From: Apostichopus japonicus
Taxonomy: Eukaryota > Echinodermata > Holothuroidea > Aspidochirotida > Stichopodidae
Direction: 5' to 3'
DNA: 64,000 bases
Assembly (NCBI RefSeq): GCF_037975245.1
Contig: NC_092580.1
Location: 4,810,501 to 4,874,500, forward strand
Each line of letters starts with the position of its first letter. Position 1 is the first letter of the stretch. Positions 19,860 through 61,200 of the stretch are shown here, piece by piece. Both the position numbers and the translations under genes were made by a program. The notes under the pieces were generated by a model, which saw nothing but the letters and a program-made list of their open reading frames with translations, searched no databases and was not told the DNA's origin.

Positions 19860-20012
19860 TTACTTAATATGACTTAATATACAAGTAGCCGTGTGTGTTC
19901 AGATGCATGCTTTTCTCATTTACTGCTTGATCTCTTTGAACCTAAGCGCATCTAGGCGGCTTGGCTTCAATGGTTTCTCAATTTGGCAAGAAAATGTGTT
20001 ATTACATTAAGA
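19860..20012 (+). repeat. local duplication, left copy
   Basis: This aligns with about 20327-20480. The near-identical end is caagaaaatgtgttattaca followed by ttaagattataa. Other shared blocks are aggcggcttggct and atggtttctcaatt. The offset is about 466 bp, with scattered substitutions and one- to four-base indels. Confidence 0.8.
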
Positions 20013-20326
20013 TTATAAGCTAACGACAATGCAGATAATTAGTTCTGTATATTTCAACTTCGTTCTAGCTTTATAGCTTTAGTGGCTTGATTTCATTTTT
20101 CTGAATTATTTCTCTCTCTTTCCTTTCTTTATGCCTGAAAAAATTGGGCAAATATCCGCATCTCATTAATATTCTCATCTGGGATGATTGCATGTAATTT
20201 GTTTTTTTTTTCCTTTTTTTTTTTCCTTTTCTGATACAAACAGATTGATGACTTAAGCTGTCTAATCGTTCAGCTACAGTATGATTCAATTCTTTTTTCT
20301 TTCTTTTTTCCAAATTGGCTATGATT

Positions 20327-20480
20327 CGAATTATTACTTTAAATACAAGTGCCATGTGTGTTCATGTGCGTGCTTTTCTCATTAATTGCTTGACTTCTTT
20401 GAACCTAGAAGCATAGGCGGCTTGGCTCGAATGGTTTCTCAATTGGCAAGAAAATGTGTTATTACATTAAGATTATAAAT
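20327..20480 (+). repeat. local duplication, right copy
   Basis: Partner of the segment at 19860-20012. A shorter echo (ggctatgattc plus aaatt near 20490) suggests part of the intervening DNA was also duplicated. Confidence 0.8.
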
Positions 20481-23954: not shown

Positions 23955-24736
23955 AGTAAAGTTCTTCTTCATGTCCTCTCAGTGAGGAAGGGAAATGATT
24001 CCTACTGTATAACTGAGTTCTTCTTCATGTCCTCTCAGTGAGGAAGGGAAATGATTCCTACTGTATAACTGAGTTCTTCTTCATGTCCTCTCAGTGAGGA
24101 AGGGAAATGATTCCTACTGTATAACTGAGTTCTTCTTCATGTCCCCTCAGTGAGGAAGGGAAATACATCTCTACTGTATAACTCAGTTCTTCTTCATGTC
24201 CCCTCAGTGAGGAAGGGAAATACATCTCTACTGTATAACTCAGTTCTTCTTCATGTCCCCTCAGTAGAAAGGGAAATGATTCCTACTGTATAACTAAGTT
24301 CTTCTTCATGTCCCCTCAGTGAGGAAGGGAAACAAGTCTCTACTGTATAACTGACTTCTTCTTCATGTCCCCTCAGTGAGAAAGGGAAATGATTCCTACT
24401 GTATAATTAAGTTCTTCTTCATGTCCCCTCAGTGAGAAAGGGAAATGATTCCTACTGTATAATTAAGTTCTTCTTCATGTCCCCTCAGTGAGGAAGGGAA
24501 CTACTGTATAACTAAGTTCTTCTTCATGTCCCCTCGAAAGGAAGGGAAATGATTCCTACTGTATAACTGAGTTCTTCTTCATGTCCCCTCAGTGAGGAAG
24601 GGAAATACATCTCTACTGTATAACTCAGTTCTTCTTCATGTCCCTTCAGTAGAAAGGGAAATGATTCCTACTGTATAACTAAGTTCTTCTTCATGTCCCC
24701 TCAGTGAGGAAGGAAACAAGTCTCTACTGTATCATT
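23955..24736 (+). repeat. minisatellite, 14 units of about 56 bp
   Basis: The core ttcatgtcccctcag (or ttcatgtcctctcag in the first three units) recurs 14 times, each time followed by an aggaaggga-like block, a variable segment (atgattcc, tacatctc or caagtctc) and tactgtataactgag. Variant types are ordered: the run tacatctc, agtagaaaggg, caagtctc occurs near 24150-24345 and again near 24590-24730, which indicates a higher-order unit duplicated as a block. Every unit also looks like a pyrimidine tract plus CAG. Confidence 0.92.
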
Positions 24737-27181
24737 AAGAATTGCAGGTCAGCTATCTCAGCCATTCCTTAAGACTTCCATGATTGTCCATTCGTACTAT
24801 CAGCTTCAACAGCTGCAGGGTGTGGTCAGTCAAAGAATTTCCCCTCTACCCCCCCTTCCCCTCTAGGAGGGTTACCTCAAACTTGGTCCCTCTACAAAGT
24901 TGTGGAGGAATACACAAATTTGCCATTTGATCTGATTGTATAATAGATGGTTTTAAAGTAGTTTTGGTTATATGATCTTACTAAGGAAGGTAAGATAGCC
25001 TCATACTTAAGTTAAACATATATTATATAGTGTACATATTACCGATATTACTAACAGACAGTTAACTAAATCTTAATTAGGATATTGGCACTCACAGAAC
25101 ACTGACCCAATTACATGTACAGTACAGCATATATGTCTAATATACCGTATCCTGGGTTACTGATCTCTATTAAACTTTAGGAAGCCAGGCATCTCAACGC
25201 TAAAAATTGTTATGTTCATATTTGCAGGTATGGTCGGCCTACTGTACATACAAGCTACCGTTGCAAAAGGCCCTTACTGTACGTTAGTAAAGCTTATCAA
25301 TCAAGATTAATTGCCAGCTGGAGCCGGCACCGATGCTGCAATAGTGTTATATATATATAAAGGAAATGAATAACTTATTACACCAAGCTTGTTACGCCTG
25401 GCAATGAACACAAACCGAGCCGGGAGTTTCGGTCTTCACAAATCCCCGTGGGCTCATAAGCTTCGAGTGTTCTGTTAATAACAGCGGGAGTGTAGCATAA
25501 AACAAATGATAAATGGAGTCTCGTCTTACGAGCTGATCGTCATTAATACGCAAATCTTGTTGCATGAACCAAAAGCCTGAGTTTTTAATGCCAGTATTGC
25601 AAGGTGATATTATTAATACGTAATTCTTTATACTAGGGGGTGGAAGGGAGGGGAATTTGTAGCCACACCACTGTATGTCCTTTATCAGGCCAAAACCCAG
25701 CATAGTGCTAAAAACAATTTACTAGTTAGTTGCAACACAAATCTGCTCTTTTACTTTTCAAATACGGACCTTGTAACTTTGTGACCAAACCATGCGATAC
25801 TTGCACATACTGTACAGTCTGGATACATCCCTCAATGAAATAGTGGGCACACCATCAACTTAACAACTGATCATAGTTGCTTCAAATTAACCAAATCAAG
25901 TCCATGTCCCACAAAATAAATTGAAATATCTGATTGTTTCATTCGCTGATCCCCTTAAAGTTCATTGTCTTTCTGGTATCATTTAACTTTTCCTTGGTAG
26001 ATTATCGTCCCACAAGATGGCCACAAATCCCCTTAAACGATGGCTTAAGCGTTTCACAGCTACATTCGGCACAACCCATTATCCTTCCGTAACTATGTAA
26101 CTAAATCAATTTCATTAGCTGTTTTCACATGAAGTACAACTAAGAAATCCCTTTGCATGTGAGTTGGTGTTCATGTGGACTTGGACACGTACAGTGTCAT
26201 ATATAATTAGGAATAAGGTAAAAACTTAAACAATGCAAATTGTCAATGATAGAGCAAAATTGGACTGATAAGCAATGGTCTGTGGCTATAAAAGGATCCT
26301 TACTTTCTCACTTTCTGCACCTCTATACCCCCCCCTCCCCTGCCCTTCTCCCTTTTCTTGTTTTTTATGTGATTATACTGTGGTAAGAAATGATTGCATT
26401 TAGAATTTACCATCATGGCAAGACACAATGTGAGATGGTTATAATCACAAACAAGTTTACATGAATATGCAACATTCCATCGAAGTACTCTTCTACCATC
26501 TATCACAAACAGTTGGAGAGTCACTCCAGGTTTCTTTAAAGCAAACCTCCGCACCTCATGATGACCACAGAGGGCAGTAGCGTCATCTCCGTAAGATACA
26601 TAGCAATGTCATCAGATCAGTTTCTTGCTGGAATGGTAAATGTCAATTACCTGTATAGTATCCCTCTCTTCAAGGACACCCCTCTCTGGTAACCTTGTCT
26701 CTCCATCAAAGATACTGGCTTTCCTTGACAACGGGAATGCAGCGGCGGCCAGAATGTAACCTGCTTGAATCAAGTAGATGGAAGCCAACACCTCTGACTT
26801 GAAATATGTATCCAGTACACCCTTCTAGTTCAAAGACCTTTTACCGTCGAACCAAACAGGATCATTTACATGTACAGTAGGGCCCTCTTGCATGACTTTC
26901 ATATGCAAATATTCATCAGTTGAACCCTGTCAGTCTTCTCGATTTCTAATATAGAAAAACTCTAGCAAGGATTTTTTTTTCCAAGCCACCAAATTTATCG
27001 GACATGTATTTGTAACACAAGTCTCATCTACATTCAATGGCATTGATAGTATGCATCAAACAGAACCAATTCTCCTGCACATCACACAAATAGCAACCCA
27101 ATTAATGCATGGCCATACTTAATGAGTTCTCATCCCTTCATCCACGCTTACACAGCTACATGACATTCAGTTGGGACTTTT

Positions 27182-41030: not shown

Positions 41031-41101
41031 GCACTGTTAGTGTAGTGGTATCATGCAAGATTCCCATTCTTGCGACCCGGGTTCGATTCCCGGACAGTGC
41101 A
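41031..41101 (+). tRNA. tRNA-Gly (anticodon CCC), copy 1
   Basis: A 71-nt cloverleaf. The acceptor arms gcactgt/acagtgc pair fully, with A as discriminator. The anticodon stem caaga/tcttg encloses loop ttcccat, giving anticodon CCC, which reads GGG glycine codons. The T-arm has the box B sequence ggttcgattcc, and the D-arm region agtgtagtggta provides box A. No intron is present. A T-rich run within about 15 bases downstream can serve as the pol III terminator. The body closely matches the vertebrate tRNA-Gly-CCC type (from memory). It is the first of three copies within 1.6 kb. Confidence 0.97.
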
Positions 41102-41106
41102 CATGT

Positions 41107-42022: not shown

Positions 42023-42093
42023 GCACTGTTAGTGTAGTGGTATCATGCAAGATTCCCATTCTTGCGACCCGGGTTCGATTCCCGGACAGTGCA
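42023..42093 (+). tRNA. tRNA-Gly (anticodon CCC), copy 2
   Basis: I see no base difference from copy 1 over the 71 nt: same acceptor stem, same CCC anticodon, intact boxes A and B. About 35-70 bases downstream, sequence similar to the 3' flank of copy 1 recurs (caatgaaattttcaataa versus caatgaaattctcaataa). The duplication unit was therefore larger than the tRNA itself. A weak T-run (ctttttaac) lies about 30 bases downstream. Confidence 0.97.
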
Positions 42094-42576: not shown

Positions 42577-42647
42577 GCACTGTTAGTGTAGTGGTATCAT
42601 GCAAGATTCCCATTCTTGCGACCCGGGTTCGATTCCCGGACAGTGCA
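42577..42647 (+). tRNA. tRNA-Gly (anticodon CCC), copy 3
   Basis: The third 71-nt copy appears to have the same sequence as copies 1 and 2, with intact pol III boxes. Its 3' flank differs from the others, and the first substantial T-run is about 50 bases away (attgttttacc). Termination may be less tight, or the copy less active. Copies 2 and 3 both have an aacag before the gene, so the 5' flanks are partly related. Confidence 0.97.
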
Positions 42648-43179: not shown

Positions 43180-43335
43180 ATGGCTAGCTGCGATCATGTA
43201 CGTACCTTTCCAGTCGACCTTTTCCCAAACTCTACAATCTCGATAGCACTCTTTGATGGCATAAAAAATCATGATGAACTGAAAAAGAAAATAATCTCCG
43301 GTAAAATAGATGCAGCTCTTCTCTCAGCCAAAAAG
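43180..43335 (+). CDS. TPRKB: TPRKB coding exon 1
   Basis: 52 codons starting MASCDHVRTFPVDLFPN, ending SAKK before the donor GTAGGT. It covers the first beta-strand region, including LFDGIKNHDELKKKI, which aligns with human LFKDVKNAGDLRRKA. Confidence 0.93.
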
Positions 43336-46028
43336 GTAGGTGACCGGACATTGTACATTTATGATTTAATGTAGGGCCCTTTCTAGCCTACGGTAAGTTA
43401 GGGTACAGTGCTTGTACGGTTTCGAACTAGTACTAGTTACGCGAATTTGCAATCATTATGGCACTTACCAACCTTTAATCTGATCAATCGTATACATTTG
43501 CAAGGGACTCGTGAAACTAACCTGATGAGAAATCGTCATGATAATGTGGTTACACTCTCGTTTTAATGGGAGTGAGGTGAGAGTGGACCAAGTTGTTTGG
43601 CTTTCTTGCCCAGGTGTTATAATTTTGAGAAACTCCACAATGTTTGACATACATGTCACAGCAATGTTTTACCATTTTGAATCAAATGAAACTGAAGTTT
43701 AGTCACCTCTGAAGAAAAATCTAGTGGAGTAATTGCAGAATACACAGCAACTCGGAAGACACCCTCGAAAAAATTACTGGCATCATGGTCACCTTGCATA
43801 CAGACTGACATACATGTGGATAGTGAGAAAGATGCATATTTTGAGGGTGGCAATGACATCAATTAACAGACCAATGTAGCCTACTGCATTGCTGTTGTCC
43901 AAGTAGGCTAGGCTTGCCTATAGTCTATCCAGTGACTGCGAATGCAAAGCTGGCATCAAAGTGGAAACTACATGGTTGCTGGGTAGTCTGCACAGTTAAG
44001 TCAATCTTGCGATTGGCCACTTAAGACTTTGTTTTGGTAGGCCTATGCCTAACAATAATACAATATATTATTTTGTAATTTACAGAATGAGCTAAGGCTG
44101 TAGCATCAGAAATTCATTTGGTTGGTTGCTGAGGAGCTACAATATTTAAATTCATGTTTTCTGTGTAATATTAAACATTAGCCTAGTAAAATGAAGCAGG
44201 GGCCAAGTGGCATAGTATGCTACAGACCTGCTTTGTAGGATTTCGTGCTTTATCAGTGTCTTCCAACTTCATTCTGTGCAGTAGCACATGTACAGTATGT
44301 GGTATATGCTAATTGCTTTCCTTGTTTCCTTCTTCAGATATGTGACATATTCCAGGTTCTTGTGGCTGCAACCAAAGCAGTTGGTGCTAAAAGCAATGGC
44401 AAGCTGAAAACCAGAAGTATTAATTCTGAAGTACTCTTCAGTTTGTCACCATCCAATAATGTAAGTGCTTATTTGGACAGAACATGTGTCCATGGAACTT
44501 CACAGATTCTCTGCATAATGCTGCAGTGTACACCTCTGAGTCTTCTGTTCCAAATTTTCCAGTAGGAAGGTGCTGTTACCACATCGGTGTATTTGAACCT
44601 GATAGTGCTTGTTTTTGTTTGATTTGATAAATTTAAATATTGAACAGCTACCCACAAAATGCCTGCAATGGGATTTTTGGACTGATGGCACAGATGGTCT
44701 TTACAGTCGCTCCCCCTGCTCCCCCCCCCCTAGCTATATCCCTGGTATACACTTGGGTGAATCTGATTAGAAATAAAACATCATGTTCATGTGGTTTCAG
44801 TATAAACGAATGTTACCTGTTTCTTTGAGTAGGGAACCCTGTACCATGTTCACCATGCCAGGTCTGGGGAGGGGAGGGGGATTGGCTCCATGACTAAAGT
44901 TGAGCTGGACTCTATTTCATAAAAGTTACTAAAGAATGTTCCTAAATTAATGTTCCTAAATTCTCCTCTATTTAGTCTCATTTTGGCCAATTGCTTCCAT
45001 TTGTCGGAAGATTCTTGCTACTCTGTCCATGCCTACTCTAGTTCTGTTAGTCTAATTAATCAGGTTTTTTTTTGGGGGGGGGGGTAAAATCAATTTTCAC
45101 GCCCTAAAGGAGTTGCACTCCATGCTATTCGAGTGGGATACATTAAACATGCACAACTGTTCACCATGATTTTACTTTCTCACATACTGGTACCATACAG
45201 CTCTGCTCCTTCAAAACATCTTCCTCCAGTACATTAATGTTTCTTGCTTTTGTTCTCTAGATCACCGAGTCTCTGAGAACATTCGGAGTATCACCGTCGG
45301 ATAGCACCGTTGTAGCAGTCACCATCGATGATTTCGATGGACTCAAGATTCAGAATGTTGCCCAACAGATTAATGCGGAGATGAAACCCCTGGACCAACT
45401 GAATAGATACACCAATGAAGACATCATTAAGAAGGTTTGAAAATCTATTTGACTTCTTTACGATAATAAGTTATTTAAGGAATATTTGTAGTCTTTTATG
45501 TCGACCACCATCATGAGCACAAGAAAGCATTTGATGCTGGAATTTAGAAATGCACCTTGTAAGAAACTTTGTGCGATTGTTTCAGAACCTCGCTAGTCAC
45601 TTGATGTCAGAAACGATGGAAATTTGAGTATGGTGTCTCTAGAAATTAGTATAAGCATTTGACTTTCTGCTGGTACGTAAATCTTGGGTTTTATAGAATA
45701 TTTCCCAAGATTAATATTAAGAATGAAATAATACATTTTTTTTTCTTCAGAGCACGATCGACCGCACAATATTTTACTTCTGTTCAATATTGTTTGGGTT
45801 CCTCCAGATTTCCGATGACTGTAAATGTTGATTTGCAGTCTTTAGTTTTGTACAAGTGAAGAAAGGTCGTTACTGCTCGTTTGGTTTATATTTGATACCA
45901 TTTATTCATTTATTTATTCTTTCCTGTTTCTTTGGCAGGTCTACAAAATATCTGACGCTGAGCTAAAACACAGCAAGTTGTTAGATTCAGTCGCGACTAG
46001 GATTGCAGTCAAAGAATTTGCTACCTGA
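43180..46028 (+). CDS. TPRKB: TPRKB / Cgi121, EKC/KEOPS complex subunit (4 exons)
   Basis: Exons 43180-43335, 44338-44460, 45261-45434 and 45939-46028 join in phase 0 throughout to give 180 residues; human TPRKB has 175. Conserved blocks recognised against human TPRKB are DLFPNSTISIALFDGIKN near the N-terminus, DIFQVLVAATKAV then KTRSINSEVLFSLSPSNN in the middle, ITESLRTFGVSPSD and a final VYKISDAEL. By family knowledge this is the Cgi121-like subunit that binds the kinase TP53RK (Bud32) in KEOPS, the complex that makes N6-threonylcarbamoyladenosine at position 37 of ANN-decoding tRNAs. The start is the first ATG in frame, with A at -3. All introns are GT-AG. It converges with the IRAK1-like gene. 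AATAAA at 46980-46985 or ATTAAA at 46830 may serve polyadenylation. Confidence 0.95.
43480..43640 (-). repeat. dispersed repeat, copy B (in TPRKB intron 1)
   Basis: This aligns with 36250-36410 on the same strand over roughly 110-160 bases. The best block is gagtggaccaagttgtttgg. It lies in the first intron of TPRKB and appears to be an old insertion. Confidence 0.5.
44338..44460 (+). CDS. TPRKB: TPRKB coding exon 2
   Basis: 41 codons between acceptor ttcttcag and donor GTAAGT. It encodes DIFQVLVAATKAV and KTRSINSEVLFSLSPSNN, the best conserved part of the family (human DPFQILVAANKAV, KTRTLSTEIIFNLSPNNN). Confidence 0.95.
45261..45434 (+). CDS. TPRKB: TPRKB coding exon 3
   Basis: 58 codons after acceptor tgttctctag, ending IIKK. 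The donor is GAAG|GTTTGA, a weaker but valid GT site, and reading on without splicing meets a stop at once. It includes ITESLRTFGVSPSDSTVVAV. Confidence 0.93.
45939..46028 (+). CDS. TPRKB: TPRKB coding exon 4 (C-terminus and stop)
   Basis: 29 codons, VYKISDAELKHSKLLDSV onward, then TGA. The start aligns with human IYKLSSQEESIGTLLDAI. The acceptor is ttctttggcag. Confidence 0.93.
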   Translation, partial: VYKISDAELKHSKLLDSVATRIAVKEFAT

Positions 46029-52256: not shown

Positions 52257-55200
52257 GCCCCAGAATCATGGGGGAGAGGTAAAGAAGTTTTCTCATTTTC
52301 AAAATATCTTTTAAGAAAAAAAATGACAAATTGAAAAGTGGGTGGCTCAGTGTGGTAGATATCCGCAGGTTCCAACCTGGTCAGATAACGGGAAGATACA
52401 TCATTTTCTGTCATGTCATCCACCATCGAAACAAGGCCTAGAACATTTTCAGCAATGCATCATAATACACATCATAATACACATCTCCCCATATATATAT
52501 AACGCCACCAAATATACACCTACCACGCCAAAACTGAATGAATCAACCTTGATAGATAGCTGCAGGTTCCTTTTGAACTCCTCGGGCAGATACGGGAGAG
52601 TGCCGTGAGCAAACTGTGTCCTCAGGAATGTGTGAGATCGCCCATCGGTAGGGCCCGGTCTAGCCAATCCAAAGTCTGCGATTTTGGGCTCAAAGTATTT
52701 GTCCAGGAGGATGTTCGCACTGGAAAGAAGAAGGATATTATAAACAGTACAGTCTTCGGAAAAACCAAAAGAGGAATGCAAATTCTCTCGGAGACTTTTC
52801 TCCGATGGATCGATTAAATGAGGTAAAATAAAGTCTTAGGTGGGTCATATGTCAAAGTGGGTTTTGTCCCCATAGGGGTAGATATTTACATAGAAGTGCT
52901 TTCACTTTTGGAAAGGGATGTACACCAAATACGAGGTATGATCTAGTCCTTCTGTAGACAGTAGCCTACTTCATTTCAAAATACAGGGGGGAAAATGTTA
53001 AATTTAAGTATCTGTAAAGATCCAACCCCCCTAACCCCCCCGGCCCCCACCCACCCATAAGTGGTGGTGTCTAAAAACCTTTGTGAAAATACTTTTATAC
53101 CAAGTACTTTCATTTTATACCACGAGGAAAATTATTACCTTTTAATATCCCCATGGAAAAGTGCTGAAGTCTTAAAAGCCTTTGTGAAGATGATTGCCAT
53201 TTTATAACAATTTGTGCACTGTGAAAGAACCATTTTTTTAGTACCCTTATTTAAAGGTGGTGTAGTCTCAGCTTGCGTAGATGGTCTTTACCCTGCACTT
53301 CTCCTTGTTGATATCCAATGTATACTTTTAGTAAGAATGGCTACCTTTTAATATCCCCATGTATAAGTGGTGCAGCCTTAGAGTCCTTGTGCATATTGGT
53401 TTTCACCAATCACTTCCATTTCATTACCAATGTATATCATGAGAAAGAACCACTACCTTTTAATATCCCCATGTATAAGTGGTGCAGTCTTCGAGGCCTT
53501 GTGCAGATGGTTAATACCAAGTGCTGCTCCTTCTGCGATTGAATGCCTTTTCTGCCATGAAAGTGGCTTTCTTCCTCCCTAAGAAGAAAACAAATATTGC
53601 ATGTTATATAAGTGAGGGAGTTTCACACAAGTGACCTTCAGATATACAGTGTATAGTTACAATCCCTTGATATCAACATTGGGGGAGTGGGGAAAGGAGG
53701 GGGCTTAACAGCAATATCATCACCACTGATATCCTGAAAGAATATGGTAACCTTACCTCAACCCCCCCCCAACCCCCATCCCCCTCCACATATTTTACAA
53801 AGTACAAACAAGTTTGTGACATCTGGGATTCACCCTGTGTCTATATCCAACCTAGGTGATGGACCCAGATCCAATAGCAACACTGTACAGATGTCTATTT
53901 GCCAAACGTATAGATGTTGAAATAAAACTTCAAATTCCTGACACTGTTTCATTGTTCCAACCTAGGTGGACCATAACCCCATAGAGACACTGTACAGATG
54001 TCTCTTTGCCAAACTTACAGATTTTGAATAAGACTTCAAAAACTCCAAGGAAAGTTTTGCCATTCCAAATTCCATACACGATTGAAACTCTGATTGTTTC
54101 AAAACAATTATTTATGCCGTAAATAACTTGAGGTGATTGAGTCCCTCAATCACATTTAACTTGGTTTTAGCGCAAGATAATTCTCTCCATTTTGTTTATT
54201 ATACTTGGCTAGACTTCCCTAACAATCCATTGTAAATCACAATACTACAATTTAGTGGTGCTGCATTGATGTACTGGTAAAGGGTCTGAAATATTGTTTT
54301 ACTATAATTGCTAGGAAGGGTTTTTTATGGTGGTGGGGGGGGGGCAATCAGGACCCAGCAGAAGTGGAACTAGAAATAATTTTGGCTGTCTAGAGAAACC
54401 GAATCTGCGACATCACAATCATGTCCGCACTGTTTAAACTTTGGGGGTTTAATTGTGGTAAATTTCAAATGTCACTTTCTCTCCAACCTGTAAAGCACAT
54501 ATGTATGAAAGCTTTGGCAAAGTGTTGTTTTGTATCTTTCGGGTTATCTAATTTTTAACATTAAAAACCTCTGGACTATTCTTTAACATCAAATGAAAAT
54601 ATCAGATAATACCTGGATCATTCAATAAGAGTGATTTATCTCCACAACCGAAAGAAAATTCAACTTTGAACTTTAACTTCCCTACCAATGCTCACCTTCC
54701 CTAAAAGGTTATCTTCTAGAGATCCGTTCTCCAAATATTCGTATATGATGCAAGGATTCTCACCGTCCACAGAGAAGAAGGACATTAAGACAATGTTTTT
54801 GTGCTTGAACCTGTCGGTGGAAAAATAGTGAAGGCTGAAGATTGACTCTAGTATTAAGGTGGTTATCGCTATGGAAACAGGAAACATGACATCATGTGCG
54901 GAACTTTTAGACTTCAAACTTCCTGCCTCGTGTGAGTTCCATGAAATGCTTGTACAGTATAAACTCATTCAATTACAGTATCTATATGTGGAAAGGTACA
55001 GCATGGTACCCTTGTGTTAACAAATTTCTCTATGGTGCCTTCTCTTTGCTAGTTTGCATAGGTCGATGAAAATACAAGTTAAACAATCCCCTTATATTGT
55101 CACTTTGGTGATTTGTTTCTACAAACATGTTGAAATGTTTCATACATGTGAAAGTTTAACCCTTTTTGTTGTTGTTGCTGTGACAGTGATGACAAATACT

Positions 55201-58200
55201 TCCTATCTTTTACACACATTCCTCTCAATGGCACCTCCCTCCCTAACCCTCCCCCTACCCCCTCCCTAACCCTCCCCCTACCTCCTCCCTTACCCCTTCC
55301 CACTGTCAACCATGCAAGCAGCAAACTAATTTATTCTAGCTTTTGTGAAACTGTTTGTTCGCCTTTTAGAAGCTTTGTGCATTGAAATAATGGAAGTTGA
55401 GGGGGAGAGGTGTATGGAGAAGAGGTGAAGGGGGGAATAGGTGAGGGGCACAAGGAAGATGGGGAGAGGGATAAATGGGTGAGGGGAAGAGGGGAAGGAG
55501 AGGGATGAGTCATATAACTGTAATGTACTTACTGTGCCAGAGCACTAAGTTCCTTTGACTGATCTGACCTGTGGTTATTGTGAAAAGCAACTTGTAATTT
55601 ATCATTCTGTCAAAAGAAAAAAGAAAAAGTTTCATGCAAACATTTGAATATTTTCCACCGACTTAAATACATATCAGATTAGCACATACCGTGCTCTTCA
55701 GGCTTGATCAAAGCTCCACAAGTCTCTAAAGAGTTTACTTTTCCGGACGATGCCACACGTACCTCCACCCATACGAACCCCACATGGGAAAATTGTCTTC
55801 ACAGCTAACTCGTTGAATGTCAGCACATGTCAGTCACTTGGTACTTCTAGCAGTGAGGGTGTGTAGCCTTATGGCCACCTCAACAGACCTTTAGCTTTGG
55901 TTTCATAATTTTTAATAAATATAAGGAATGCTTGCTGCATGTTTGTAGCAGTGAGGTATGCACCTCCATCCAACACTCTTGGTATGCATCCAAAAAAGAG
56001 GGAATGTTTTTTTGTTAAATTTGTATGAATACTGCAAAATTGTCGTTGCCATGGCATGAAGTAAATAGTATCAGGAATATAATGGAAGCAAGTTTAAATA
56101 CAGTATGTTTCTAGATCAATCCAGTGTTTTTCAGACTTTTCTTTGGTCACAATGAAATGAGTCAAGTTTAATACCCATAATAGAACTTTTACTGCAAATT
56201 TAAATATATTGCGATATTTTTGTTGCCATGGCATCAATAACAAGTAAACAAAGTCAGGTTATGGAAGCAAATTTTAATATGTTTCTAGAACAATCCTAGT
56301 TTCAGTTTTACAACTTTAGTTTTGTCACGAATGAAATGGATCAGTTTCAATACCTGTAAGAGAACTTTCACAGCATATTTCGTTTGGTTAATGTCGGCTA
56401 AGTAAACTTTTCCAAAGGAGCCTTCTCCTAGTTTGTTCTTCTCGTCAAAGTTGTTGGTAGCTTTTTTGATGACATCGTAATCCATGTGTAACGTTGTGTT
56501 AAAGACCACAAAGTCCAAAACTGAAAGAACAAACACACAGAATCACAAATTAACGGAGTTGCCATGGAGATGGTTTGAAATTTGCAGCTGTTGCAGTGAA
56601 AAATCAAAAAATTGTGGAAACGTGTGGATGTGGGGGCTAGCGTTGCTTATTAGATTATTTACCGATACTTCAACTGTAATGTTCACCTACATTTTTGTCT
56701 TTCTTCCCGACTGATGTCTGTGCTGGGCGGCGCGTGTGATTCCTGTGACTGCTGCTGCACATAGGGGCTACTCGGGGGACATAATCTGCTATCTGGGTGG
56801 TTGAACGGCTGATTGGGTCCCCCGACTGACATGGGGTTTGCTGTTCCGGGGGACATGCGGCTAGAACCCACAGTGTAGCCTGGCATGTACCGGCTGTGTT
56901 GCGAGGACAGAAAATAGTTGTTGGGTTCGACGGCGGACGGTTGATGACTTGGTCTGTACTGATCCTCGGGTCTGAGATAGTTCATGCTTGGCTGTGGGTA
57001 TCCAGGTGATGTGGGCATCCCTTTATCTGTCGGAGAGAACAATGAAACACCAATGGATGTGTTACAGAAATATAGAGAGAGCAAAAAAAAAGAAATAAAC
57101 AACAACAACATGATACCATTATAAGTTATAATTCCTGCCCGAAATCCAAGAATTAACACTAGGCTGAGTTAGTCAAGATTATTCGGCAAAATTTGGCTCT
57201 TTCAAAAGGGAAGATGTCCAACCATATTTGAAAGATAAACTGGCAGTGATGTGCACAGGAAGAGTGGGGTGGGAAGGTGTGGGGGGAGGGCAGGTGGTCA
57301 TAGCATGGGCCTTCCACCTAAATCATGAGTTAGGGGGATTAGTTTCAGTCAAGGGATCTCAGTTCACTCGCAGAAGAATGAAATCATTTCTCTGGGCCTA
57401 GAATATCCCATCCACGAAGGTTCATCCCTTCGCCACCTTTGTAATCATGTGCAGGTTACTGCATCATGGACAAGAAACTCTTTAAGAACAAAATTTTGTT
57501 TCATCTGAGTTCATAATTACTTATGGCTTCATAACCACATCTAAATATCACAGGAAAGTGATAAAGTAATGAATCGAGAAAATAGATGCTTGAAATGTCA
57601 TATTATCACTCAGTAAATTGCATTTTAAACCTTGGAAGATATCACAATATGAAAGGGTAAACTACACATTTACCCCAACTATAAAAATTATGTAAATTAC
57701 GTCAGATATTTTAAATCGGACTATAATTTTTGTTTTCATTACCTGGAGCCATTGGTGGCCCTGGTGGGCGAGTAGCGGGACTCATATAATTTGGTGGCTG
57801 GTGTCTACTCTCTGGTGGGTTATTATCCAATGGATTTCCCTGGATGTTATCAATCATATAGTGTAACTTTGGGTCAACTAAAATTAAAAGAAACAGGGGG
57901 ATTTAAAAAGAAACATTAATGGTGTTAAAAAGTAGTGAAAAGAGTAAAAATTATTAATTTGGAGAGTACAGACCTCCAGGAAAGTACTTTTTAAAAACTT
58001 ATATCAATTATAGCATGCTATAATTTGGGGCCTATACAGACTACCTTTAAACAACCTACACCATTAGATACATGCACAGGGGCTTAGTCTGCTTTGCAAA
58101 TAACTAGAAGGCTTATGCGTAAACTAGAGAATACGGTTATATTGCAACAGTTACCTTTCTAAATGGTAACTTAAAAAAACAAAGATTAAAATTTGTGCAT

Positions 58201-61200
58201 ACAAAAATAAAAGGAAAAACAAAAGAAAAGAGAAAGCAGAAAAAATATAAATAAATAAATAAAGTGAACAAGAAGACTCGAGCAAACGCTTTCCGAAAGG
58301 TCGTCATCAGTATTGTACCCCAAATATGCTGGTAAGTCCAATAATGGTCACCCATGCTTAATTTTCACTAGACACTTTATTGCCAAGTCTCCTAAAAGCA
58401 ATAGGTCTCCACACTGAGATAGTTTAATTGTCTATTTTCACAATCGTAAAGTTGACAGAATGATTTGGAGAATTCATAATTGTCACGAAATCGCTTTCCA
58501 AAACCTTCTTCGCAAGTTTACAGCATTTCTATAAAAAATTTGAGTCCAATACTGAACAACCGTTTCGTGGTTGGAAAAAGGAAAATTTATATACCGACCG
58601 TCAAACCTAACAAGCCGTGGTCCACTGTAAGACATTTTTTTCAGTAAGAAGTGTTTATAGTGATACTTTGGTAAAGTCTGACTTAAAAACATCCACTGAC
58701 TGTACTTTAATACAATATCCTGCTAAATGGTAATATATTAAGATTGGTATCAGCTTCTAACGAGTAACGAGTAAACGAGTCACTCAGGGTTTGTTTCAGT
58801 TCCTTGTTTTCTTTCTCAGCATTTTGGTATCCCCAAACTAATCTTACAATGAACTTAATTGTTCTAGTTTCAATTTGAATCGAGTCCCAAATTTCCTCAA
58901 ATATTGTTAAAGTTCTTTGCAACCTTTATCAAAGACATCTATAGGCAAATATTCTGGCTAATATAAATTTGTAAAATGGGTGATGTTCCAAGCATTGCAA
59001 AGAAAGAAAAGTAATATTAAGTGGAGGGGGGGGGAAGGGGGGATGTTTGCCTATTGATATCAGAAGGGACTTAACAACTTGAAATACCACTATTGCAACA
59101 GAGCATATATTGCTGAGTCCATTAAACAGGAACAATTGGTTCCTATTGTCATCACTTCCCTAAAGGAAGGAAAACTCCAAAATAGAAACGTCATACATCA
59201 CGTGTACACCTAAGCGAGTAATCCATATAAATATGGACTAGCTGAACCAGAATTATAATTACCAATAGATAAAAGGAACGTTATTTCCATTCACGAACAG
59301 AGTGAACATGAGGATACATGATTGCACAATCGTTGCTCAGTTTTGCTGGTAAAAGTGAAACAGCAAATATGCTTCAATAGTTAAAATGGTTACCTGTTAA
59401 ACTTGTTTAACCAGCAAGGCTTTGACAGAACATGAAACATTTCGAGGAATATTGTATATATTGTCATGTTCAACAACACAAGCACCAAATTTTTGGACCA
59501 ATTGACTGATGCAGAAGCTTTATCTTTAACTGCATGGGGATACAGTGTATATGTTAATATTTGTGTATATATGGCGTAACATCTTAAGTGCTGAACTTAA
59601 CCTAATTAAGCGCAATACCTATAACAGTGGTTAATTGCAGTTTCATGGAGGTACAGTATCTGCATTGCTCATCTAGATATATGTGTACTACAAACTGTGT
59701 AGATGTGGCTTACCTGAGTGTGTAATAACCTAAGTGCTTACCTTTAAGTACTTTTCTAGTTTCATGGAAACACAGTATGAATACAAACTGTGTAGATGTG
59801 GCTTACCTCAGTGTGTAATAACCCATGTGCTTACCCAAGTGCTTACCTAAGTGCTTCTATCTAGTTTCATGGAGACACAGTATGTGTACAAGTGTAGATG
59901 TGGGTTGTTTCTATCTTGAAGGAGAAGCTGCACATAGTAGGGTAACAGCACTTGTATTATCTCACAGATGGGTGGGAGTTTCTTACCCAAGTGCTGAATT
60001 AGTTTCAGGGGAAAACATATATTCATTGTGTGCGTAAAAATGGCTTAAGTGCTAAATTAGTTTCACAGGAAATACACTTAGGTATATATGCATTGTGTGT
60101 GTAAAATGGCTTGCCTACGTAAGTGCTGAATTAGTTTCACAGGAAATACCCTTAGGTATATATTCATTGTGCCTAAAAATCAGGCTTACTTTTGCGCTAA
60201 ATTAGTTTCACAGGAATTACGTTTAGGTACATATATTCATTGTGTGTCTAAAAACGGCTTACCTACCTAAGTGCTTGATAAGCTTCATGGCTTGTGCATG
60301 TCTCATTTGTGCGAGTGTCTCGTAGAGGTCGGTGACCCGGATATTCCTGTACCCCCACACTCTCAAAAGCTGTTCTGTCGGACTTCCTCCGCTGTACTTC
60401 GCCTTCTCAAAGCACTGTATGTCTCCCATACCAAATCCAGCATAGGCTCCTAAAATAATGTGTACAAAAGATCATTATTGACAAGTACGTAGTTTGCATT
60501 GATAACCTGGATCTTTTGCTATTCGTACGTGAATGTCTTAAATTTGCATACATCATGTTATTCATTCAAAGCCAAGCGTGCTACATTCCAAAGCAGATCT
60601 AGAATACAATTTAGGTTATACAGTCGTCATTGCGTTTGTCTGTCATATATTTAAGTTACTCTGTAGCTGTAATAGGTAATTATTTGGTATATTTTTTGCA
60701 CTACTATAATATAACATGTATACAGGCAATGAACCAGTACCATTGATGATTACATGATTCCTCACATTTTTCACATGCAGGCGTTGCTAAGGAAGTTCTA
60801 GCACAGCCTACCATGATTGGATGATCATCTTTCATTGGGGATATTCAGTGACATGACATGGGGTAGTATTTAAGATGTACCTTCAAAGAGACAGCTGGAA
60901 TTTTGAAGGCATCTAATTTTGGTGGTCAGCTAAAGGATACATGGTCAATTGCTAAACTTTTCAAACTGCCAACTTTGTACAAAAATTCAATAAACGTACA
61001 TGCTTTTAGTCTGAAATGCAATCCAGAATAAAAGAACTTAAAAATAACTGCAATTTAAGAAAATTGCAAAAAGATTATGTAAATTTGAGAATCAAAGCCT
61101 GTCAAATTATTCAGTGATCTGGATTACTGTTAACTTTTGTGTGTGACTGAACTTAATATGTAGCCTAGGTTAAGTTAGCAACCATGGCTTACCTTCAAGC

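Follow-up and report, generated by a model that had tools for sequence, protein, structure and literature searches.

An IRAK-type gene with tandem arrays at three exon ends

The window analysed here, a stretch of 64,000 nucleotides, carries on its minus strand an IRAK-type gene that was modelled in 12 exons from 61621 to 49657. The model starts with the first exon in which an ATG was found, ends at the stop codon and leaves out UTRs. Splice phases agree at all 11 junctions of the spliced model, which yields an open frame of 945 amino acids. When residues 1-562 of the predicted protein were used to query PDB, IRAK4 chains ranked at the top (E 4.7e-54, residues 210-556), and IRAK1 and IRAK3 were also among the matches. 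Exon 2 corresponds to a Pfam Death domain match, the open frame of exon 9 lies above the cut-off of the Pfam kinase model, and exons 5 and 7 match kinase models below cut-off. By homology, the gene is predicted to combine a death domain with a kinase and to be an immune-kinase gene. Its exons 2, 5 and 8 coincide with those so numbered in a preliminary description of this DNA. The donor of exon 11 is weak (1.4 bits, according to a donor matrix not trained on the source species) and its placement may be wrong.

In the preliminary description, the 3' ends of exons 2, 5 and 8 were proposed to have been copied together with the 5' splice site and adjoining intron, and this is what we observed. We aligned an 80-nt probe placed on every splice site to the flanking 700 nt in both directions, with 100 shuffles per probe. 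The donors of exons 2, 5 and 8 gave downstream scores of 65.5, 63.0 and 93.5 against shuffle maxima of 29.5, 30.5 and 24.5 (z 17, 17 and 33), and these matches cross the exon-intron junction. Probes from the remaining 8 donors and all 11 acceptors of the gene scored within their shuffles; an extra upstream match of the exon 8 donor (26.0, shuffle 25.0) is confined to the intron side of the probe and falls in intron 7. In a local-repeat search of the whole window, the arrays of exons 2, 5 and 8 reached self-alignment scores of 171, 103 and 112; five shuffled windows gave at best a score of 30. Aligned stretches exceed the unit length (185 nt at an offset of 179, 174 at 110 and 201 at 58), so the copies abut head to tail in the manner of a tandem array. 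Copy boundaries were set manually before alignment.

Exon 2 (60267..60449, minus strand; donor TAG/GTAGGT) contributes its last ~21 nt to the repeat unit of an array that extends over 59571..60287 on the same strand and was delineated by TRF, direct repeats, self-alignment and an alignment of nine hand-cut copies. The exon-proximal part consists of units of about 74 bp, each comprising ~21 exon nt, the donor and the start of the intron; deeper in the intron, to about 59571, the units measure about 93-105 bp and are more divergent. A 12-bp tandem bearing the donor motif is nested within the array at 59821-59856. Intron 2 is 2389 nt long, of which the array spans 696 nt. Copies 3 and 4 are 93% alike, the remaining whole-copy identities range from 40 to 79%, and shorter stretches are up to 94% identical.

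The last ~27 nt of exon 5 (56354..56520, minus strand; donor CAG/GTATTG) lie within a 179-bp unit present in two abutting copies at 56017..56380, minus strand. These are 72% alike in the self-alignment (56017-56201 with 56196-56380), with a divergence of 28-30%; a third copy further into the intron was unsupported (47-50% identity).

In exon 8 (53457..53578, minus strand; donor AAG/GTAGTG), the last ~64 of 122 nt belong to the repeat unit, and the encoded sequence ends ...IHGDIK, directly ahead of the kinase motif ANILLD. The array, at 53035..53522 on the minus strand, comprises about five copies of a ~108-bp unit, with the donor GT present in copies 2 and 4 and absent from copies 3 and 5. Pairwise identities among copies 1-4 are 60-75%, i.e. 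25-40% divergence. The copy in the exon is 75, 67 and 67% identical to copies 2, 3 and 4, which are 60-61% identical among themselves, a pattern that constraint on the exon and drift of the remaining copies would produce. Copy 5 breaks this pattern, being nearest to copy 4 and 48-64% identical to the others. Third-position differences between exon and intron copies (7/14; 3/5, 3/6 and 1/3) gave no significant signal of constraint (one-sided P 0.15). We also considered copy 4 as an alternative exon: an 80-nt stretch at 53218-53139 has an acceptor-like AG, an open frame and fitting phases. This reading is disfavoured, since short frames are often open by chance and the first half of exon 8 is missing, and there is no sign that the stretch is used.

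Read unspliced past their donors, exons 2, 5 and 8 meet an in-frame stop after 2, 22 and 1 residues, respectively, so an intact protein needs the first donor. Its use is likewise suggested by frame and homology: the spliced exon 8/9 frame reads GDIK-S-ANILLD, in agreement with IRAK4, while the exon 5/6 junction falls where the kinase alignment is weak.

In intron 7 we found a further, two-copy tandem duplication (53846..54040, minus strand), with copies ~110 bp apart and 82% alike, that has no contact with an exon and is a counterexample, within the same gene, to an exon-edge location. We rejected its interpretation as a decayed array of the exon 7 donor, as it has no match to that donor (score 23.5, shuffle maximum 27.0). 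All six pairwise scores among the three exon-edge arrays and the intron 7 repeat fall within shuffles; the arrays thus have no mutual similarity, which bears out their proposed independence and led us to reject a shared mobile element as their source. Because the three are mutually unlike and each nevertheless spans an exon end, a donor and the start of an intron, the preliminary description's recurring mechanism is a fair reading if taken as one recurring kind of event. Across the window, counting islands without low complexity, with a score of at least 31 and offsets of 12-600 bp, we obtained ten islands, five in the IRAK-type gene (the exon 2 array accounting for two) and five elsewhere, of which one scores only 31 and one consists of tRNA genes.

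Position of the arrays relative to splice sites

The preliminary description also stressed that the copies were always expanded downstream and saw in this gene a bias toward the donor side. The copies do lie downstream, yet this position is automatic and no separate observation: a tandem duplication itself has no direction, and the spliced exon retains the first copy, as it must if the protein is to be unchanged. As for the bias, arrays occur at 3/11 donors and 0/11 acceptors of the gene (Fisher, one-sided P 0.107, two-sided 0.21). With a control gene added, the counts become 3/13 and 0/13 (one-sided P 0.11). This TPRKB/CGI-121-like gene (43180..45440, plus strand; exons 43180-43335, 44338-44460 and 45261 to about 45440) matches Pfam CGI-121 above the curated cut-off for exon 2 and below it for exon 3; exon 1 was placed from frame alone, and a later exon is possible. 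The same splice-site probe test detected no arrays at its two donors and two acceptors. It was the one further above-cut-off gene, beside two weak below-cut-off matches, yielded by a codon-usage scan and a Pfam search of 10 hand-picked open frames, most of the 175 listed frames being outside the search, so that other genes may be missed.

All three exon-touching arrays are on the donor side (P 0.125), and matches at 3/11 donors compare with 59/456 probes from intron positions (P 0.17). When the four islands were placed at random in the gene, at least three donors were hit in 11% of 20,000 trials. A donor bias is therefore unsupported, and a preference for donors over acceptors is unproven from one gene and a small control. 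When random placement was restricted to an exon contact of at most 75 nt with no whole exon included, a limit that was set after the arrays were known, at least three donor hits were obtained in 0.4% of cases, and at least three hits on edges of either kind in 3%. Arrays may thus contact exon edges more than expected. An excess of this type has a possible plain cause: in an array that includes part of an exon, one of the copies is constrained and hardly drifts, so the array would be recognisable for longer.

We regard as unlikely a process specific to donors, in which the donor sequence or its occupancy by protein or RNA, e.g. in an R-loop, would make 5' splice sites prone to duplication. Such a process would account for the donor-side position of 3/3 exon-touching arrays, the nested 12-bp donor-bearing tandem of intron 2 and the P of 0.004 for at least three donors under contact-limited placement, but the donor-acceptor, intron-probe and unrestricted-placement values speak against it, as do the location of one of the four arrays in the interior of an intron and the acceptor-side arrays included among the lancelet cases described in the available text of PMC3087553 and PMC3902484.

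Donor motifs retained in the intronic copies

In the 696 nt of the intron 2 array, 8 donor-like sites score 7 bits or higher, a density of 11.5 per kb against a background of 1.25, as scored with the matrix untrained for the source species. Five of these 8 sites outscore the real exon 2 donor (8.7 bits), and one of the five lies only 4 nt beyond that donor, at 60263; splicing there would change the reading frame. Copies 1, 2 and 4 of the exon 8 array share a block of 20 identical nt around the donor (longest-run permutation for copies 2 versus 4, 0/20,000). With the same untrained matrix, the real exon 8 donor scores 4.8 bits, and those of copies 2 and 4 both reach 5.4. The exon-derived parts of the intron-resident copies 2-4 are more alike than their intron-derived parts (120/178 versus 55/113; P 0.002 on the assumption that pairs and sites are independent). 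Weaker alignment of the intron-derived half may partly account for this difference. By that matrix again, which is not adapted to this genome, the exon 5 array has no donor-like site of at least 5 bits, the real exon 5 donor scoring 4.4.

Some copies, then, hold donor motifs more than plain decay predicts, which counts against simple neutral decay. Candidate causes are conversion from the exon, lower alignment quality in the intron part, and selection. Under the last of these, copies would be retained to act as decoy or regulatory donors, offering U1 additional sites downstream of the exon and modulating the splicing of an immune-signalling gene, for example by giving rise to a transcript with a premature stop. 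The abundance of donor-like sites in intron 2, five of them above the real donor, and the donor block shared without change by the intronic copies 2 and 4 of exon 8 are what such selection would leave; however, the intron 2 sites are themselves repeats and so not independent, the donor has been lost from exon 8 copies 3 and 5, the exon 5 array lacks any site of at least 5 bits and the scores derive from a matrix not trained on this species. We consider this explanation quite improbable.

A combination of the two preceding ideas, with donors as hotspots of tandem duplication in this genome, copied donors weakly selected as a reserve or decoy, and introns growing from their 5' ends, appears very improbable to us. 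The presence of three of the gene's four repeats at donors, the nested 12-bp tandem and the identical donor block would fit it; these counts are no proof.

Origin of the arrays and their relation to mirages

In our view the arrays are probably neutral, old and decayed minisatellites of the mirage type. On this account, introns 2, 5 and 8 would each independently have undergone head-to-tail duplication of a short segment that by chance spanned an exon 3' end, the donor and the start of the intron, the mechanism being slippage, unequal exchange or repair synthesis. Splicing would have stayed at the exon-proximal donor, copy 1 remaining the exon edge and later copies becoming intron; each duplication would have been tolerated because that donor was still used, leaving the protein unchanged and the intron longer. 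The arrays would later have grown by internal duplication and decayed by mutation. Their divergence suggests that they are no longer homogenised.

Mirages are minisatellite-like tandem duplications of exon-intron boundaries in the lancelet Adh3 and globin genes. As presented in the available text of PMC3087553, both 5' and 3' boundaries are open to duplication, Adh3 data and RT-PCR of globin transcripts suggest that splicing is undisturbed, and a model of intron gain is proposed. Repeats of 60 and 108 bp, called imperfect, are found at 5' and 3' splice sites of lancelet PGBD5 (PMC3902484, in part), and similar repeats in lancelet troponin C are cited in the mirage literature (PMC3087553, PMC3902484). 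The unit lengths given in those portions are 10-72, 60, 108, 157 and 150-160 bp. Boundary repeats being on record from lancelets, at boundaries of both kinds, the arrays are not the fresh kind of example that the preliminary description took them for.

As in these mirages, tandem units in the IRAK-type gene cover an exon edge, a splice site and adjoining intron, measure tens to about 180 bp and reside in a protein gene that needs normal splicing. Contiguous units span the exon-intron boundary at 3/11 donors, and units of about 74 bp (~nine copies) and 108 bp (~five) fall within the range of roughly 10-160 bp in several copies; the exon 5 array has only two copies, and its 179-bp unit is slightly above the examples in the published portions consulted. 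A large share of the copies, though not every one, carries splice signals (those numbered 2 and 4 in the exon 8 array, the 8 sites of intron 2), and frame and homology agree with use of the first donor, as far as sequence can indicate. Differences are also apparent when the arrays are set against the lancelet cases as described in those sources. Here three arrays occur in one gene, all on the donor side, whereas lancelets also have acceptor-side cases; the arrays are mostly strongly diverged (40-79%, one pair 93%), whereas the units of lancelet BflGb6 are 81-100% alike; and lancelet mirages have demonstrated length polymorphism and splicing, the IRAK-type arrays being known from one sequence.

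Two further origins have a negligible probability. An RNA-mediated one, in which DNA copied from an incompletely spliced or circular transcript was used to patch the gene, would explain the exon sequence in the copies, but a spliced RNA or lariat would not carry both sides of an exon-intron boundary, and we reject this origin because the units run across unspliced boundaries and follow one another directly in head-to-tail order. Chance similarity or an assembly artefact has in its favour only that a single assembly is concerned, against scores of 103-171 (shuffle maximum 30) and z of 17-33 at the donors, and most copies differ far more than would be expected of duplicated haplotypes or mis-assembly, the 25-40% (exon 8) and 28-30% (exon 5) divergence ruling out duplicated haplotypes or recent assembly error.

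Two other systems offer partial parallels. In the Rogers model, as outlined in PMC4974935, an intron arises when an exon segment bearing AGGT is duplicated in tandem, with a potato RdRp gene as a case. The arrays share with it a tandem duplication in contact with a splice site; however, in that model the duplicate becomes a new intron inside an exon, whereas here the copied donor comes from an intron that was already present, and we saw no split exon. For human paralogs in segmental duplications, changes of gene structure by internal tandem repeats are reported (PMC2812944), and these repeats likewise meet exon structure. We found no new intron within a continuous exon: each exon stops at copy 1, the other copies are intronic, the frame resumes in the next exon and read-through meets stops, which leaves intron gain unsupported. 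The suggestion that such events show how introns lengthen or new donors arise stands in so far as introns were lengthened and donor-like motifs laid down.

Splice-boundary repeats named mirages were reported only from lancelets in the open-access literature examined; if the source of this DNA is not a lancelet, the arrays would extend to it a structure hitherto restricted, in that literature, to lancelets. They also offer concrete tests of intron lengthening and of the choice of the real donor over stronger downstream copies. Three independent arrays in one gene indicate that exon-edge duplication can recur and can form a good part of an intron: including the intron part of the first unit itself, the arrays span 29% of intron 2, 45% of intron 5 and 57% of intron 8.

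Splice-site features of the IRAK-type gene

At the donor of exon 2 of the IRAK-type gene, a 4-nt tandem donor is found at 60258-60267 (GTAGGTAAG), in which the second site outscores the first and would, if used, shift the reading frame. Further downstream in the same gene, the fourth, intron-resident unit of the tandem array at the end of exon 8 creates an 80-nt open stretch (53139-53218, minus strand), in which an acceptor-like AG is present and whose phases are compatible with replacement of exon 8.

Other genes in the window

The TPRKB/CGI-121-like gene, used as a control in the splice-site repeat test, lies at 43180-45440 on the plus strand. Three tRNA-Gly (CCC) genes, detected with ARAGORN and Rfam, are located within a single 1.6-kb stretch (41031-41102, 42023-42093 and 42577-42647), the last two being identical over 76 bp.

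Repeats away from the IRAK-type gene

The highest-scoring array of the whole window (score 1049) occupies 23959-24739 and consists of about 14 tandem copies, approximately 90% alike, of a 56-bp unit; no adjoining exon was recognised. A duplicated 151-bp segment, with copies 464 bp apart and 87% alike, was observed at 19868-20478, where no gene was recognised. Finally, three copies of a 39-bp unit (780-896; 92% alike) are open in one plus-strand frame.
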